In this document: piece by piece, positions 102 to 44,865 of the stretch
How positions within the stretch are numbered: the first letter of the stretch is position 1
Layout of the letters: each line of letters opens with the position of its first letter
Source of the DNA: Paracoccus shanxieyensis
GTDB lineage: Bacteria > Pseudomonadota > Alphaproteobacteria > Rhodobacterales > Rhodobacteraceae
Length of the DNA: 64,000 bases
Direction of reading: 5' to 3'
Assembly: GCF_009711265.1 (NCBI RefSeq)
Contig: NZ_WMII01000016.1
Span: 1 to 64,000, forward strand
Made by a program: the position numbers and the translations under genes
The notes under the pieces: generated by a model
Database searches by the model: none
Seen by the model: only the letters and a program-made list of their open reading frames with translations
What the model was told of the DNA's origin: nothing

Positions 102-581
102 CTACACCACGCCGCGGGGCACTATCCAGCCGAGGGTCGGCTTTACGCCCATCTCGTTCGCAATAGGCGCCCAAAGAAGCACCGCCAATTCATCTTGCTG
201 ATTAGGAAACTCGGCAGCCCAACCGATGCGCTTTCCGGCGGCACGGTTCATTGAGGACAGATGCCTGATGGGTTTGAACTGTCCCACAAAGCCGGCCTCC
301 TTTACCGCGCTGCTCTGAAAGCGCACGCCGTCAGGGATCGCGACTGTCAGCATGCTTGCCCCAGTGAAAACCGTCGACGCGATGTGTCTTGCGCGATCTA
401 TGCTCTGCAGAAATCTGGCTGGCCCAAGAACGTGACGGTCCCCAAGTTCGAACCGCAGGGCAAGCTAGCAGCTGTAAAACAATGTTTTGGGAATTTCCGT
501 CCAGCCAAATGGCTCAAGTATATCATCCAAGTGTTCATCCAAGTGTTCATCCAAGTGTTCATCCAAGCTTGAACGGTCCAT
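102..581 (-). pseudogene. DUF3885-like gene broken by an in-frame amber stop
   Basis: Read on the minus strand from ATG at 581, the frame stays open to the TAG at 102-104 except for one internal TAG at 465-467 (codon 39). The protein starts with four LDEH-type repeats. It then has LFYSC, the stop, and LALRFELGD, followed by RFLQSIDRARHIAS. The LFY-x6-RFELG arrangement resembles the DUF3885 domain, a family of unknown function; this is from memory and moderate at best. Codons are more AT-rich than in the neighbours, which suggests acquired DNA. There is no clear Shine-Dalgarno before ATG 581. An internal ATG at 353 could yield only an 83-residue tail. I read it as a recently inactivated gene, although amber read-through is not excluded. 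Confidence 0.5.
522..567. repeat. 12-bp tandem repeat, about 3.8 copies
   Basis: The unit TTCATCCAAGTG is repeated without interruption, with a slightly altered first copy and a partial last copy. On the minus strand, in the frame of the DUF3885-like gene, it encodes repeated Leu-Asp-Glu-His. The unit is a multiple of three, so copy number can change without a frameshift. Confidence 0.9.
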
Positions 582-637
582 GCGGCGTCTCAAGGATGAC
601 AGCCAAGGTCCGCTCTGTCAGCAAGTCGCGCCGCAAA

Positions 638-668
638 ACAAAAAAAGCGGCCCGCCCCGGACCGCTTC
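638..668 (-). terminator. Intrinsic terminator downstream of pckA
   Basis: On the minus strand AGCGGTCC pairs with GGGCCGCT (one G-U pair) across a five-base loop, and a run of seven T follows. It lies about 70 bases beyond the pckA stop codon. Confidence 0.75.
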
Positions 669-670
669 AT

Positions 671-718
671 CTTCTTCGTTCCCGAAATACTCCGGGGGTG
701 CGGGGGCAGAGCCCCCGC
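671..718 (-). repeat. 3'-end element copy 1 (GGAGTATTT...AACGAAGAAG) with GC hairpin
   Basis: Just after the pckA stop, the minus strand carries a perfect hairpin (GCGGGGGC, TCT, GCCCCCGC at 700-718). It is followed by GGAGTATTT, a short spacer and GAACGAAGAAG. The same block recurs after recF, mutM and mmsA in this window. Confidence 0.7.
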
Positions 719-735
719 GTCGCGGGACGCAAGCC

Positions 736-2334
736 TCAGCCGATGGCCGCGGCGCGCACGTCGTCGTCGATCTTGTCGGCATATTGCGCGAAGTTGTCGC
801 TGAACATGCCGACCAGCTTGGCCGCCTGCGCGTCATAGGCCGAAGCGTCGGCCCAGGTCTGGCGCGGGTCCAGCAGCTTCTCGTCGACGCCGGGCACCGA
901 GACCGGAACCTCGAAGCCGAAATTCGGATCCTTGCGGAACTGCGCATCGTTCAGCGAACCGTCCAGCGCGGCGGTCAGCAGCGCGCGCGTCGCCTTGATC
1001 GGCATGCGCTTGCCGGTGCCGAAGGCGCCGCCGGTCCAGCCGGTATTCACCAGCCAGCAATTCGCGCCGGTCGCCTTGATCTTTTCCTGCAGCAGCTTGC
1101 CATAGACTTCCGGGCGGCGCGGCATGAAGGGCGCGCCGAAGCAGGTCGAGAAGGTCGGGGTCGGCTCGACCACGCCCACTTCCGTCCCCGGCGTCTTCGA
1201 GGTGAAGCCCGACAGGAAGTGATACATCGCCTGCGCCGGGGTCAGCCGCGCGATGGGCGGCAGCACGCCATAGGCATCGCAGGTCAGCATGATGACATTC
1301 TTGGGCATCCCGCCAAGGCTGTCGACCGATGCGTTCGAGATCTGGTCCAACGGATAGGCGCAGCGCATGTTGTCGGTGATCGAGTTGTCCTCGAAATCCA
1401 GCACCAGCGTTTCGGGATCATAGACCATGTTCTCGATCACGGTGCCGAACTTGCTGCAGGTCGCAAAGATTTCCGGCTCTGCCTCGGCCGACAGGTTGAT
1501 CGTCTTGGCGTAGCAGCCGCCTTCAAAGTTGAAGATGCCGTGATCCGACCAGCCATGTTCGTCATCGCCGATCAGCACGCGCGACGGATCCGCCGACAGC
1601 GTGGTCTTGCCGGTGCCCGACAGGCCGAAGAAGATCGCGCTGTCATCGGGGTTGCCGATGGCGTGGTTGGCCGAGCAATGCATCGGCATCACGCCTTTTT
1701 CCGGCAGGATGTAGTTCAGCAGCGTGAACACGGATTTCTTGTTTTCGCCCGCATAGGCGGTGCCGCCGATCAGGATCAGCTTGCGATCGAAGTTCAGCGC
1801 GATCACGGTTTCGCTGCGGCAGCCGTGCTTGACGGGATCCGCCTTGAAGCTGGGGCAGTTGATGATGGTGAATTCCGGGGCGAAGCTTGCCAGCTCGGAC
1901 GCCTCGGGGCGGCGCAGCAGGTGGCGGATGAACAGGTTGTGCCATGCCAGCTCGGTCACGACGCGCACGTCAAGACGCAGCGCCGGGTCGGCACCGCCAA
2001 ACAGGTCCTGCACGAAATAATCCTTGCCCTTCATATGGGCCAGCATGTCGGCATAAAGCGCGTCGAATGCCTCGGGGGCCATGGGCTTGTTGTTGTCCCA
2101 CCAGATCGACTCCTCGACCGAGGCGGTGCGCACCACATGCTTGTCCTTGGGCGAGCGGCCGGTATGCGCGCCGGTCGAGACAAGGAACGTGCCGCCAAGG
2201 CCCAGCTTGCCTTCGCCGCGCTGAAGAGCGGCTTCGATCAGCGCAGGTTCCAGCAGGTTGTAATAGACATTGCCAAGACCGGTGATCCCTTGATCTTCGA
2301 GACGGCAATTGGGGTTGACGCGCGGTTCGGACAT
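736..2334 (-). CDS. pckA: Phosphoenolpyruvate carboxykinase (ATP)
   Basis: Converts oxaloacetate and ATP to phosphoenolpyruvate, CO2 and ADP, the entry to gluconeogenesis; cytosolic. The 532-residue length is normal for the ATP-dependent family. The P-loop GLSGTGKT lies at about residues 237-244, followed by the metal-binding segment [10 protein letters not shown], and [13 protein letters not shown] near residues 53-65 is typical. The start at 2334 (MSEPRVNP) fits related proteins. It is divergent from hprK. In many alphaproteobacteria the ChvI/ChvG two-component genes sit between pckA and hprK; they are absent here. A terminator and a repeated 3' element follow the gene. Identification is secure. 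Confidence 0.97.
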
Positions 2335-39500: not shown

Positions 39501-40585
39501 GCGACGGACCCCTGTGCCTGATCGCCGCCGGGGGCACCGGCGGCCATATGTTCCCCGCGCAGTCCCTGGCCGAGGTGCTGCTGGCGCATGGCTGGCGCGT
39601 CAAGCTGTCCACCGACGACCGCGGCGCGCGCTATGCGGGCGGCTTTCCCGATGCCGTCACGCGCGAGGTGGTCAGCTCGGCCACGACCGCGCGCGGCGGC
39701 AAGCTGGACAAGCTGATCGTGCCCGCGCGCATCGGCGCGGGGATCGTCGCGGCCATCGCCGCCATGCGCGCCGACCGGCCCGCCGTGGTGGTGGGCTTTG
39801 GCGGCTATCCGACCATTCCGGCGATGTCGGCGGCTTTTGCCCTGCGCATTCCGCGGATGATCCACGAACAGAACGGCATCATGGGTCGGGTGAATTCCGC
39901 CTTTGCCCGCCGCGTCCACAAGGTCGCCTGCGGCACATGGCCCACGGCGCTGCCGCCCGGCGTCACGGGCATCCATACGGGTAACCCAGTCCGCAAGGCG
40001 GTGCTGGATCAGGCGGGCGCGCCTTATGCCGCGCCCGCCGACGATCTGCTGAACCTGCTGGTGATCGGCGGCAGTCAGGGCGCGCGCGTCCTGTCCGATG
40101 TGGTGCCTTTGGCCATCGCGGCCTTGCCCGATGCCCTGCGCCCGCGCCTGCGCGTCAGCCATCAGGCCCGGGCCGAGGATGCCGCGCGTGTGACCGAGGC
40201 CTATGCGCAGGCGGGCATCCGGGCCACCGTGCAGCCGTTCTTCGACGACGTGCCCCAGCGCATCGCGCAGGCGCAGCTGGTCATCAGCCGGGCCGGGGCT
40301 TCGTCCTTGGCCGACATCACCGTGATCGGACGCCCGGCGATCCTGATCCCCTTTGCCGCCGCCACCGGCGATCACCAGACCGCAAATGCGCAGGCCCTGT
40401 CCGACAGCGGCGCGGCGTTGGTGCTGCCCGAATCCATGCTTGACGCCGAAAGCCTGCGGCGCGACATGCAAGAGATCCTTTCCGACGGCGCGCTGGCCAG
40501 CCGCATGGCCGCGACGGCCCTGTCCCTTGGGCGACCCGATGCGGCCGCCCGTCTTGCAGAACTTGTAACGGAACTTCACCAATGA
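39497..40585 (+). CDS. murG: Undecaprenyl-PP-MurNAc-pentapeptide GlcNAc transferase MurG
   Basis: Converts lipid I to lipid II on the inner face of the membrane. The 362-residue GT-B enzyme has the N-terminal [12 protein letters not shown], the [11 protein letters not shown] and [11 protein letters not shown] motifs, [12 protein letters not shown], and [24 protein letters not shown] for the UDP-GlcNAc site. ATG 39497 overlaps the ftsW stop, and the gene's own stop overlaps murC. Confidence 0.97.
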
Positions 40586-41994
40586 ACGCAGCGACCAAAC
40601 TTCCGGGCGAGCTTGGCCCCATCCACTTCATTGGCATCGGCGGCATCGGCATGTCGGGCATTGCCGAAGTTCTGATGACGCTGGGCTATTCGGTGCAGGG
40701 CTCGGACGCCAAGCGGTCCAAGATCACCGACCGGCTGGAAAAGCTGGGGGCGGCGGTCTTTGAAGGCCAGCGCGCCGAAAACATCGGCGATGCGGGCGTC
40801 GTGGTGATCTCGACCGCGATCAAGAAGGGCAACCCGGAACTTGAGGAAGCGCGCCGCCGTGGCCTGCCCGTGGTCCGCCGCGCCGAGATGCTGGCCGAAC
40901 TGATGCGCATGCGCTCGAACGTGGCGATTGCCGGGACGCATGGCAAGACGACGACGACGACCATGGTGGCGACGCTTCTGGATGCGGGCGGGCTGGATCC
41001 GACCGTCATCAATGGCGGCGTCATCCATGCCTATGGCAGCAATGCCCGCGCCGGGGCCGGCGAATGGATGGTGGTCGAGGCCGACGAATCCGATGGCAGC
41101 TTCAACCGCCTGCCCGCGACCATCGCCATCGTCACCAATATCGACCCCGAGCATATGGAGCACTGGGGCAGCTTCGACGCGCTGCGCAAGGGGTTCCACG
41201 ATTTCGTTTCGAACATCCCGTTCTATGGCCTTGCCGTCTGCTGCACCGACCACCCCGAGGTGCAGGCGCTGGTGGGCAAGCTGACCGACCGTCGCGTCGT
41301 GACCTTCGGCTTCAACGCACAGGCCGATGTCCGCGCGATTAATCTGCGCTATGAAAACGGCATCGCCCATTTCGACGTGGCCCTGCAGGGCGAAGAGGGC
41401 AGCCCGGTGATCGAGGGCTGCACCCTGCCGATGCCCGGCGATCACAACGTCTCGAACGCGCTGGCCGCTGTCGCCGTCGCCCGCCATCTGGGCATGAAGC
41501 GCGCGCAGATCCGCGATGCGCTGGCCAAGTTCGGCGGCGTCGGTCGCCGCTTCACCCGCGTGGGCGAGGTGAATGGCGTCACCATCATCGACGATTACGG
41601 CCACCACCCGGTGGAAATCGCCGCCGTGCTGAAGGCCGCGCGTCAGGCCACCAAGGGCCGCGTCATCGCTGTGCATCAGCCGCATCGCTATTCGCGGCTG
41701 TCGAACCTTTTCGACGATTTCTGCACCTGCTTCAACGAGGCCGATGTCGTGGCCATCGCCGAGGTCTATTCCGCAGGCGAAGACCCGATCCCCGGCGCGT
41801 CGCGCGACGATCTGGTCGCCGGGCTGATCGCCCATGGCCACCGCCACGCCCGCGCCGTTCTGGGCGAGGATGACCTTGCCCGTCTGGTTCGCGAACAGGC
41901 CCGCCCCGGCGATATGGTGGTCTGCCTTGGCGCAGGCACCATCTCGACCTGGGCCAATGGCCTGCCGGACAGACTGTCGGAGAAAGCCGCGTGA
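40582..41994 (+). CDS. murC: UDP-N-acetylmuramate--L-alanine ligase
   Basis: Adds the first amino acid of the peptidoglycan stem. The 470-residue Mur ligase has [16 protein letters not shown] at the N terminus, the ATP site [22 protein letters not shown], and [14 protein letters not shown] in the C-terminal domain. It overlaps murG and the DUF2484 gene by four bases each. Confidence 0.97.
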
Positions 41995-42251
41995 GCGAAC
42001 TGGCCAACCATCCCGGCGCCGCCGCCCTGATTGCGGTGCTTTGGGCCGTGCTGGCCTGCCTGCTGCCGCTGGTCCGCCCCGCGCGCCAGCACGCGGCGAT
42101 CTGGGGGCTGATCGTGATCGGCGTGCCGGTGCTGGGCTGGCTGACCTATCTGTGCGGACCGGGTTTCGGCGTGCTGTTTCTGGCGCTGGGAATCTCTATC
42201 CTCGTCTGGCCCCCCGCCGGGGCGATGCGCCGGAAACGGGGTGAGGCCTAA
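41991..42251 (+). CDS. DUF2484 membrane protein
   Basis: An 86-residue protein with two or three membrane segments ([18 protein letters not shown] and [18 protein letters not shown], then [15 protein letters not shown]). It matches the DUF2484 family found between murC and murB in Rhodobacteraceae, of unknown function. It overlaps murC by four bases. The normal continuation into murB is interrupted by an unrelated 484-residue gene 66 bases downstream. Confidence 0.88.
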
Positions 42252-42317
42252 GGGATAAGGCTTTGCGGTTGTAAAGCTTTCGTCGCATGGTCGGGCGACG
42301 AGGCAAGCAGGGTCCCC

Positions 42318-43772
42318 ATGGTACAGCACAATGAGAATTTTGAACGCTTCCCTCGTGAATATGCACAGCTGACATCAGACCAAAAAGCTGCGCTCGCGTG
42401 GCGCAGCATCATAAGGATGCTGCCCCAGGGCCTTCGCAGGCTACACGCAAATAACAGTATCCGTGTTTTGCGGCAGGCGCTCGTCGCGCAACTTTTCATG
42501 GCTGGCCGCGCAGAGATCACCACGCTGGAGCGCGCGGCGAACGCGACCCGACCGAGCTTTGATGGCTATTGGAGCACGTCAAGCGACCGGCCAGCTGTTG
42601 ACCGTGCTGCAAACGATATGTGCAAGTGTTTAGTCGGTAACGACGGTGCAGGCTTTGGTCCGCCAAGTATGGTCATTGCCTCCACGGGAATTTCTAATTT
42701 GGTCCCAGAGAGTCATTTCATTCTGGATGACATACGGCAAATCAGGGCAAGCGCGGCTGATGCTTGGCAAAAAGCACCGACGGAACTGCCCGAGATACTG
42801 CCCCTTACACCCGAGCACACTTCAGGTCTCGTGCCGGAACAAGAAGGCCGGCATCTGCACCCGTTCTGGAACAAGTGGTATCAAAGCGTGATCGCCGGCA
42901 CGGCGCCAAATTGGAGTTTAATTAACCGCATCGCCCAGATAGACGATGCCGCGTGGGAAGAGGGCGCCGCGACGCTCGACAAAGCGATAGACGACGCGGT
43001 CGATGATCTCTCGATTGCTATGACCGAAAACGGCGAAACTGTCGAGATCAACCCGGAAACCGGCAAGCTGCGCCTGGTCCCGACCGCTGATCTTCCTGAA
43101 GAAATGGGCATCTATGTCCGACGCAAGATGCTCAAGGCCATCGCCGTATTCGAGCAACCGCTGCCGCAATCCTATCGTGCGCTTACCCCCGATCTTGCGA
43201 TGCTGCAGTGTGCGGTCGAGGATGCGCAGAACCTGCCAGTCGAACTCTACGACGCGTGTTCGTCCGCGTTGCTTCGGCTTGCGCTGCGCGCCGAGCAGGG
43301 CGAATGCCCGCCCGTCGACGGCGACCCCCTGCTGGCGGACTATCGCAATCGCCTGCGCGATGCTGGCGCCGATATTCTGGGCTCAAATGCTGAGGCCCGC
43401 CGGGTGCTTGAACGCCGCCAAGCCATCACCGACAATGACGAGCTAATCAAAGGCTGTGACACCATCAACGAAGTAGTCGCAACGGTAGCGCCGCTGCTTG
43501 AGGGGCGTTTGGCCGAGACGCTGCCTCAGGATGCTGCCATCGCGACCGACCCGAATAGCGATCCGGCAGAACGACGCAGTGCGTCGTTTCGCCTATCCGG
43601 TCGCCTGCTTCGCATCCTACGGTTCACTGCTGCAATCGCCATAGGGGCTGGTTTGACCTTCCGCGCCCTGACCAAAGGCGCGGAGTTGCTGGAGGCCATG
43701 CAGTTTCTCGCCGGCAATCCGATTGTCAAAGATGCCCAACGCATCATCTATGAGATGTTAAATCTCCGCTAG
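42318..43772 (+). CDS. Unrecognised 484-residue protein inserted in the division cluster
   Basis: I do not recognise this protein. The N-terminal part is helical and basic (WRSIIRMLPQGLRRLHANNSIRVL). A middle segment, HPFWNKWYQSVIAGTAPNWS followed by RIAQIDDAAWEEG, recalls a W-x2-WY ... IDD-x2-WE-x-G block seen in other uncharacterised alphaproteobacterial proteins (recollection only). The C terminus has one probable membrane segment (LRFTAAIAIGAGLTFRAL) and a short tail. Codon choice in the first half (for example TTT, TTA, AAA, GGT) is unlike the neighbouring GC-rich genes, which suggests transfer. It has its own 66-base leader with hairpins, ends in TAG, and a 172-base gap separates it from murB. 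Confidence 0.75.
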   Translation: MVQHNENFERFPREYAQLTSDQKAALAWRSIIRMLPQGLRRLHANNSIRVLRQALVAQLFMAGRAEITTLERAANATRPSFDGYWSTSSDRPAVDRAANDMCKCLVGNDGAGFGPPSMVIASTGISNLVPESHFILDDIRQIRASAADAWQKAPTELPEILPLTPEHTSGLVPEQEGRHLHPFWNKWYQSVIAGTAPNWSLINRIAQIDDAAWEEGAATLDKAIDDAVDDLSIAMTENGETVEINPETGKLRLVPTADLPEEMGIYVRRKMLKAIAVFEQPLPQSYRALTPDLAMLQCAVEDAQNLPVELYDACSSALLRLALRAEQGECPPVDGDPLLADYRNRLRDAGADILGSNAEARRVLERRQAITDNDELIKGCDTINEVVATVAPLLEGRLAETLPQDAAIATDPNSDPAERRSASFRLSGRLLRILRFTAAIAIGAGLTFRALTKGAELLEAMQFLAGNPIVKDAQRIIYEMLNLR

Positions 43773-43944
43773 CGTCCCCTCACCACCCGCATCCCATGCG
43801 GCAACTGTGGGTACTCAGTGCGCGCATGTCGCGGCCAAAACCGAAACATTTGCTGAAGATCCGCAACTTGATGCCTCTTTGCCGTTCCTCCGGCAACGCG
43901 TGCCCGATTGACGCCCCGCGTAACGGCGATTAACCAACCCACCC

Positions 43945-44865
43945 ATGACCCAGACCCTTCCCACGCCCCGTGGCGCGTTGACGCCGAACCGCCCTTTGGC
44001 CGATCTGACATGGCTGCGTGTCGGAGGGCCTGCCGATTATCTGTTCCAGCCCGCCGATGCGGATGATCTGGCGCAGTTTCTGGCGGATCTGGATCCGGGG
44101 ATGGCGGTGTTTGCCATGGGTGTGGGGTCAAACCTGATCGTGCGCGACGGGGGGATCCGGGGGGTGGTGATCCGGCTGGGCCGGGGCTTCAACACCATTC
44201 AGATCGACGGCGACACCGTGACCGCAGGCGCGGCCGCGCTGGATGCGCATGTCGCCCGCAAGGCCGCCGAGGCGGGACGCGATCTGACCTTTCTGCGCAC
44301 CATCCCCGGCAGCATCGGCGGCGCGGTGCGCATGAATGCGGGCTGCTATGGCACCTATGTGGCCGATCACCTGATCTCGGTCCGGGCGGTGACGCGCGGG
44401 GGGCAGGCGGTCGAGATCCCGGCCGCCGATCTGCGCCTGAGCTATCGCCATGCCGAGATCCCCGAGGGCTGGGTCATCACTGAGGCGCGTTTCCGCGCCG
44501 AGGCGGGCGATCCCGCCGATCTGGCCGCGAAAATGGACGACCAGCTTCAGCGCCGCGATGCTAGCCAACCGACGCGGGACCGCACGGCGGGCTCGACCTT
44601 CCGCAATCCGGCGGGCTTTTCCTCGACCGGGCGGGCGGATGATGTGCATGATCTGAAGGCATGGTCGCTGATCGATGCGGCGGGCCTGCGCGGACACCGG
44701 CTGGGCGGCGCGCAAATGTCTGAAAAACATCCGAATTTCCTGACAAACGCCGATGGCGCGACCGCAGCCGAGCTGGAAGCCCTGGGCGAGTTGGTGCGCG
44801 ACCGGGTGCGCGAAACCTCGGGCCATGACCTGCAATGGGAGGTCATCCGGGTGGGCGAGGCCTAA
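43945..44865 (+). CDS. murB: UDP-N-acetylenolpyruvoylglucosamine reductase
   Basis: An FAD enzyme that makes UDP-MurNAc with NADPH. The 306-residue type I protein has [27 protein letters not shown], the FAD-binding [17 protein letters not shown], and a C-terminal AGSTFRNP with the catalytic Ser, then [23 protein letters not shown]. It begins 172 bases after the inserted gene and ends 123 bases before ddl. Confidence 0.96.

Follow-up and report, generated by a model that had tools for sequence, protein, structure and literature searches.

A modular, fast-evolving gene family beside murC and lepA in Rhodobacterales, with a possible role in biological conflict

The stretch of DNA analysed here (the window, 64,000 nucleotides of a Paracoccus shanxieyensis contig) carries, between DUF2484 and murB, a gene whose product P0001 belongs to a family that is not random cargo: in the Rhodobacterales its members are found mainly at two fixed sites, namely beside murC and beside lepA. 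As judged from Pfam, NCBIfam, PHROGs, and PADLOC, which hold no family model for it, the family appears to be undescribed. A hypervariable family that mixes its modules at two fixed sites hints at a role in an arms race, and a role in conflict or defence, as first guessed in the preliminary description of this DNA, is a fair guess. The reading that we favor, with a probability of little more than one in three (about 0.36), is that P0001 represents, at the murC slot, an alphaproteobacterial family of lone proteins that are modular, evolve fast, and would act as conflict sensor-effectors. Most of the probability beyond this reading is shared by a cell-wall accessory factor, an orphan immunity protein, and passive cargo.

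The gene at the murC–murB junction

All features of the junction lie on the forward strand. The upstream flank of the slot is formed by murC (40582..41994), which is matched in 124 of the 125 Paracoccus genomes, and a gene for an 86-residue DUF2484 protein (41991..42251; Pfam PF10658, E 2.5e-23) overlaps the murC stop by 4 nt. After a leader of 66 nt (42252..42317), the family gene runs from 42318 to 43772, followed by a trailer of 172 nt (43773..43944) and by murB (43945..44865), the downstream flank. The preliminary description had proposed an unrecognised 484-residue reading frame between DUF2484 and murB, and both parts of the proposal hold: the frame is real, and an HMM search of P0001 against Pfam, NCBIfam, PHROGs, and PADLOC gave no match at E ≤ 10. 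Over residues 181-484, P0001 shares 52% amino-acid identity with its closest homologue, which comes from the same genus, and the first, second, and third codon positions are identical at 64, 70, and 41%. This pattern points to purifying selection on the protein and not to a chance reading frame. DUF2484 and the family gene share a reading frame, and the frame of the latter is open from the DUF2484 stop onward.

The protein starts with a hypervariable N-half (residues 1-180, 42318..42857), which has no close relative (best E 0.03), continues with a conserved FWxxWY ... W(E)xG block (residues 183-228, 42864..43001), and ends with a C-terminal module of type 0 (residues 229-484, 43002..43769), for which a mostly confident AlphaFold2 model predicts a beta hairpin (240-255) together with helices. 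The W-x2-W(Y) ... WE-x-G block had already been picked out from the letters of the window; among 52 members it proves to be the best conserved part of the protein, W213 being invariant and F183, W184, W187, G194, I208, and G216 nearly so. The C-terminal membrane segment suggested at the same time is borderline, with a best 19-residue hydropathy of 1.59 in P0001; a hydropathy of 1.6 is reached in the last 30% of the sequence by 11 of the 52 members.

The leader and the trailer had been credited with hairpins. The inverted repeats themselves are present (TCGTCGC/GCGACGA in the leader and two short ones in the trailer, which are not above chance), and they fold no better than dinucleotide shuffles, with z values of -0.73, -1.12, and -0.69 for the three repeat stretches. 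Taken as a whole, the 138-nt trailer reaches a z of -1.63, with 14 of 200 shuffles folding at least as well. Given folding at the level of shuffles and no Rfam match for leader or trailer, RNA elements in these two stretches are unsupported; a sigma-70-like promoter was not found for the gene, nor any promoter match in the leader.

The AlphaFold2 model of P0001 (8 sequences) has a mean pLDDT of 65.8. By tens of residues, the values are 75-94 for residues 201-440 and 461-484, 52-62 for 441-460, and below 50 for 32-178. The model of a relative of 458 residues (L142) has a mean pLDDT of 82.3 and a pTM of 0.78, and both models show a helical architecture in which a beta hairpin follows the FWxxWY block. 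Foldseek returned no match at E ≤ 0.001 for either of them, which is not proof of a new fold. The best rows of VIA-align (Z 10-11 over 90-100 residues) are unrelated helical bundles that lie below the tool's caution level for such folds, and the best sequence matches in the PDB (E 0.057 and 0.15) are unrelated proteins. Profile hits of the 52 members are likewise weak and scattered, with no family hit by more than three members and best E values of 0.004 in Pfam, 0.0084 in NCBIfam, and 0.015 in PHROGs. The curated defence profiles of PADLOC-DB 2.0.0 gave 0 hits for P0001 and, for the 52 members, six families with one member each (best E 0.0042). In the titles and abstract beginnings of the best matches of a literature search, no such gene is named at murC–murB or at lepA, and DUF2484 is unmentioned in the literature searched.

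Shared layout, exchangeable modules, and two sites

Members of the family have in common a start motif like WL..(R)P....A.RAALR.LP and the FWxxWY ... W.xG block, often with an Ala-rich stretch between them, and the block is followed by one of at least five different C-terminal modules. We counted 74 distinct members, 52 of which entered alignment A1, with the start codons of the relatives picked by rule and by eye; the 22 omitted members are fragments, contig-end or broken copies, or have unsettled starts. P0001 is one of the rows of A1; it matches the profile built from them at E 7.4e-90 (positions 10-476) and has all that defines the family, namely the N-half, the FWxxWY block, and the C-module, at the murC slot. 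Clustering of the 52 members yields five C-types. Type 0 comprises 25 members (16 at the dcw slot beside murC, 8 at lepA, and 1 other), type 1 comprises 18 (5 dcw, 12 lepA, and 1 other), type 2 has 6 members, all at lepA, and types 3 and 4 have 2 and 1, respectively. The type-1 module carries an Asn-Pro-Pro-rich motif (e.g., GHNNPPE or GDNGGPP), and type-1 members have no strong PHROG or Pfam match. In lepA-slot members such as L100, L110, and L121 and in the dcw-slot member L007, this module looks like a separately exchanged domain.

Searched with P0001 alone, relatives are found in 65 of 390 genomes of the order (39 of 139 genera); with the family profile, the figures are 70 of 215 genomes and 43 of 91 genera. 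The P0001 matches in the whole genus and the order sample amount to 73 genome-contig entries, among which members unlike P0001 are under-represented. In 26 entries, spread over 17 genera, the gene lies beside murC and/or murB; in 40 it stands head-to-head with lepA; the remaining 7 lie elsewhere or at contig ends. The dcw label means that murC or murB is on the locus (only murB in G331, only murC in G462). One genome with a copy in each slot on one contig (G192) was scored once, as dcw, and two entries labelled "other" (G268 and G222) are copies at contig ends, flanked by genes that match the surroundings of the lepA slot. Three loci labelled as other slot (L125, L132, and L027) were excluded from the slot counts. 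Such a distribution, adjacent to murC or murB in 17 genera and at the lepA site in 40 further entries, leaves the earlier view of a foreign cargo gene inserted at this junction without support.

The spacing at the dcw slot varies. In 7 of the 25 distinct carriers, all 7 outside Paracoccus, the murC stop and the start of the gene are 0-14 nt apart, and in the other 18 the gene starts 39-576 nt after DUF2484 or murC. In the former 7, this spacing makes co-expression likely and suggests a single transcript. A search for related loci with P0001 alone retrieved none; alignment A3 retrieved 7, of which 4 are on contigs already counted, with murC upstream in all 7 and murB downstream in 6 within the DNA examined. 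In a sample of the class, the profile matches 9 of 385 genomes, 6 of them outside Rhodobacteraceae (one of these only at E 8e-4). Their copies are apparently lone, with rpsB, a peroxiredoxin, and a UbiG-like methyltransferase as neighbours, recognised by eye from translations. The neighbours seen are housekeeping genes and not a defence island.

How the halves combine can be read from their best matches. For the N-half, the best match comes from the same slot in 40 of 41 members and has the same C-type in 13 of 41 (label-shuffle mean 14.9); after masking and correction for composition, the counts become 36 of 38 and 12 of 36 (within-slot shuffle mean 15.6), and when the query is limited to the first 75 residues, they are 46 of 48 and 13 of 46 (shuffle mean 19.7). 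The mid block finds its best match in the same slot in 40 of 45 cases and with the same C-type in 20 of 45, versus 16.3. The best hits of the C-half stay within the slot in all 46 members and thus cross between slots in 0 of 46, so that recent exchange between the slots is unsupported. Two lepA-slot members (L091 and L110) have N-halves that are 48% identical and C-types that differ. Since the N-half follows the slot but not the C-type, the slots are separate pools, within each of which N-halves and C-modules reassort, a pattern that loss of signal in the strongly diverged N-half could partly mimic.

Occurrence in the genus, composition, and tempo

The gene is patchy in Paracoccus, where relatives occur in 9 of 125 genomes; 116, including the nearest relative, have no match. 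The same 9 are found with the single protein and with the 52-member profile, which already includes several of them. In all 9 carriers the gene lies just downstream of murC-DUF2484, even in two (G014 and G115) though their murB is elsewhere, and the copies of G014 and G051 look damaged. No second family site was found in the genus by profile search of the 125 genomes. With only 9 of 125 genomes carrying it, the gene does not have the standing of a conserved dcw or cell-wall gene; it is neither present genus-wide with normal composition nor a hit to any housekeeping family. In the nearest relative, G040 (MurB 89% and MurC 96% identity), the family gene is absent from the junction, where the DNA resembles the window up to about 42232 and again from about 43939.

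That murC, DUF2484, and murB normally follow each other closely, as the preliminary description had it, is too simple: the murC–murB gap in the genus ranges from 43 to 6113 bp, with a median of 755 bp over 112 genomes, a few of the figures resting on partial hits and 13 of the 125 genomes being omitted as the two genes could not both be located, are far apart, or are on separate contigs or different strands. In four genomes (G072, G115, G014, and G114) murB is far from murC, on another contig or at 86 kb to over 1 Mb, and a few species of the genus seem to have a broken dcw cluster. The junction of G040 (L073) holds between DUF2484 and murB a small hydrophobic reading frame (363-830, minus strand) with no Pfam match, and similar ones are seen by eye in G053 and G072. 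Other junctions carry a choline sulfatase and an OpuAC-type binding protein (G045, L039) or genes for a glycosyltransferase and a UDP-galactopyranose mutase (G111, L038). The FWxxWY block is absent from the 33 junctions of the genus that have a gap of at least 926 bp and no protein-search match (L038-L070).

The composition of the gene sets it apart from its surroundings, with a GC3 of 0.641 versus 0.788-0.851 in murG, murC, DUF2484, murB, ddlB, ftsQ, and ftsA, and the AT-richer first half noted earlier is real (0.567 in codons 1-180 versus 0.684 in the remainder). Both traits extend through the family: GC3 is lower than that of the neighbour in 49 of 49 members with a measurable neighbour (mean -0.20), the window copy ranks 30th of 49 by its deficit, and in 44 of 49 the first 180 codons have a lower GC3 than those after them. 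Because low GC3 is common to the whole family, the foreign look of the window copy says nothing about a recent arrival, and recent import as the cause of its composition is rejected. No tblastn match for P0001 or a lepA-slot member was found in 50,697 phage records or in 72,556 plasmid records, and a scan of viral contigs with A3 found no copies of the family. Carriage as cargo of a mobile element is thus not borne out by these two members and A3.

Tempo differs strongly along the gene. Among 21 dcw-slot carriers, MurB has a median identity of 72%, the mid block one of 37%, and the N-half one of 23%; for the C-half it is 23% among 15 type-0 carriers. Distances correlate with those of MurB at r 0.57 for the mid block and r 0.48 for the type-0 C-half, and the control, MurB against DdlB, gives r 0.49 (15 carriers). 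The N-half, on the other hand, hardly follows MurB (r 0.19, p 0.054), and N-half and C-half distances are unrelated (r -0.04). As the mid block and the type-0 C-half track MurB about as well as DdlB does, the gene looks like a long-standing resident, with an old rear and a front that changes very fast, a contrast that saturation of the N-half may exaggerate. For the same two parts, frequent transfer of whole alleles at the scale of the order is unsupported, and long vertical residence fits better.

A possible sensor-effector and its alternatives

If the family does consist of sensor-effectors, the N-half would be a recognition domain pressed to change, the FWxxWY block an adaptor, and the C-half an output module, so that the product would serve as a one-gene sensor-effector against phages or rival bacteria. 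The gene would ride on transcription of the cell-wall operon and be expressed with murC, or divergently from lepA, and homologous recombination via the conserved flanks would swap, gain, and lose alleles or halves without a mobile element. The fixed position, the reassortment of modules, the variability of the N-half, the constraint on the sequence, and gain and loss (9 of 125 genomes, damaged copies, and the empty site of G040) argue for this reading. Against it speak the absence of a known defence, toxin, or immunity domain from P0001, the weak hits of the 52 members, the lack of phage, plasmid, and viral-contig copies, and the housekeeping neighbours; many defence genes travel on phages, plasmids, and viral elements. 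The MurB-like distances of the mid block and the type-0 C-half, the confinement of C-half best hits to their slot, and the divergence of the N-half, which could in part feign reassortment, also count against it. A bolder version, in which the family makes up a new class of one-gene bacterial immune receptors, with hypervariable recognition halves and interchangeable outputs kept without a mobile element in recombination-swapped slots in or beside essential operons (murC–murB and lepA), strikes us as rather unlikely.

Modular sensor-effector defence genes (NLR-like/Avs and abortive-infection genes) are similar in that a single gene joins a variable recognition half to an exchangeable output half, and in their patchy distribution and low GC. 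Unlike them, the family has no recognisable sensor, ATPase, or effector domain, is fixed between housekeeping genes, and gave no match on phages or plasmids. Hot spots of accessory or defence genes flanked by core genes vary in content, as this murC–murB junction does, but here a single family is maintained at the same place in different genera and has a second slot at lepA. Accessory proteins that are modular and patchy are known; what is unusual is the habit of occupying two fixed slots beside conserved genes. Should the proposed role be true, defence or recognition genes would be kept in fixed slots inside essential operons, where island-based searches miss them. Even without a role in conflict, a fast-evolving, module-swapping family that spans an order at murC and lepA plainly invites tests, and its alleles can be collected by a slot rule, that is, from the DNA between murC and murB plus that upstream of lepA.

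The alternative that survives best is a lineage-specific accessory factor of peptidoglycan synthesis or division, which would be co-transcribed with the dcw genes, work with MurC and MurB, and tune precursor supply, with the lepA-slot paralogue doing a parallel job. Such a factor would fit the repeated placement of the gene in the operon (7 of the 25 distinct carriers have it 0-14 nt from murC), the tracking of host MurB by the mid block and type-0 C-half, and purifying selection, and also envelope-regulated dcw transcription, which is described for Rhodobacter sphaeroides in two reports (PMC7240162, PMC9275681). We nonetheless consider it unlikely, considering that 116 of the 125 genomes of the genus have no match, that a second slot exists at the unrelated gene lepA, and that swapped C-modules and very high divergence would be odd for this role.

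Distinctly unlikely is an orphan immunity protein of the polymorphic-toxin type, whose Ala-rich helical N-half would bind toxins of rivals in the manner of Imm5/DUF416 and whose C-modules would be accessory. The family is patchy and fast evolving, and the layout of its N-half presumably resembles families of this type; the DUF416 structure 2q9r can be aligned to residues 3-147 of L142 (Z 4.9, rmsd 4.5, 131 aligned), a weak alignment at a score that the tool itself counts as noise for helical models. P0001, however, has no sequence match to DUF416/Imm5 and carries the FWxxWY block and a C-module in addition, DUF416 and immunity families are not among the best 25 of the 38 weak Pfam families for the 52 members, no DUF416 match was found in the genome that carries P0001, and no toxin gene was seen beside the window copy. 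A remnant of ordinary accessory cargo, without a selected role in a permissive murC–murB gap, would fit the spread of that gap (43 to 6113 bp), the unrelated genes at the G045 and G111 junctions, and the damaged-looking copies, but is improbable as the family keeps returning to its two sites across many genera and is under sequence constraint.

DUF2484 (PF10658), the neighbour of the family gene in the slot, is also weakly conserved between species; unlike the family gene, it encodes a small protein of another family. Within the genus it evolves fast, with about 40-70% identity versus 87-97% for MurC.
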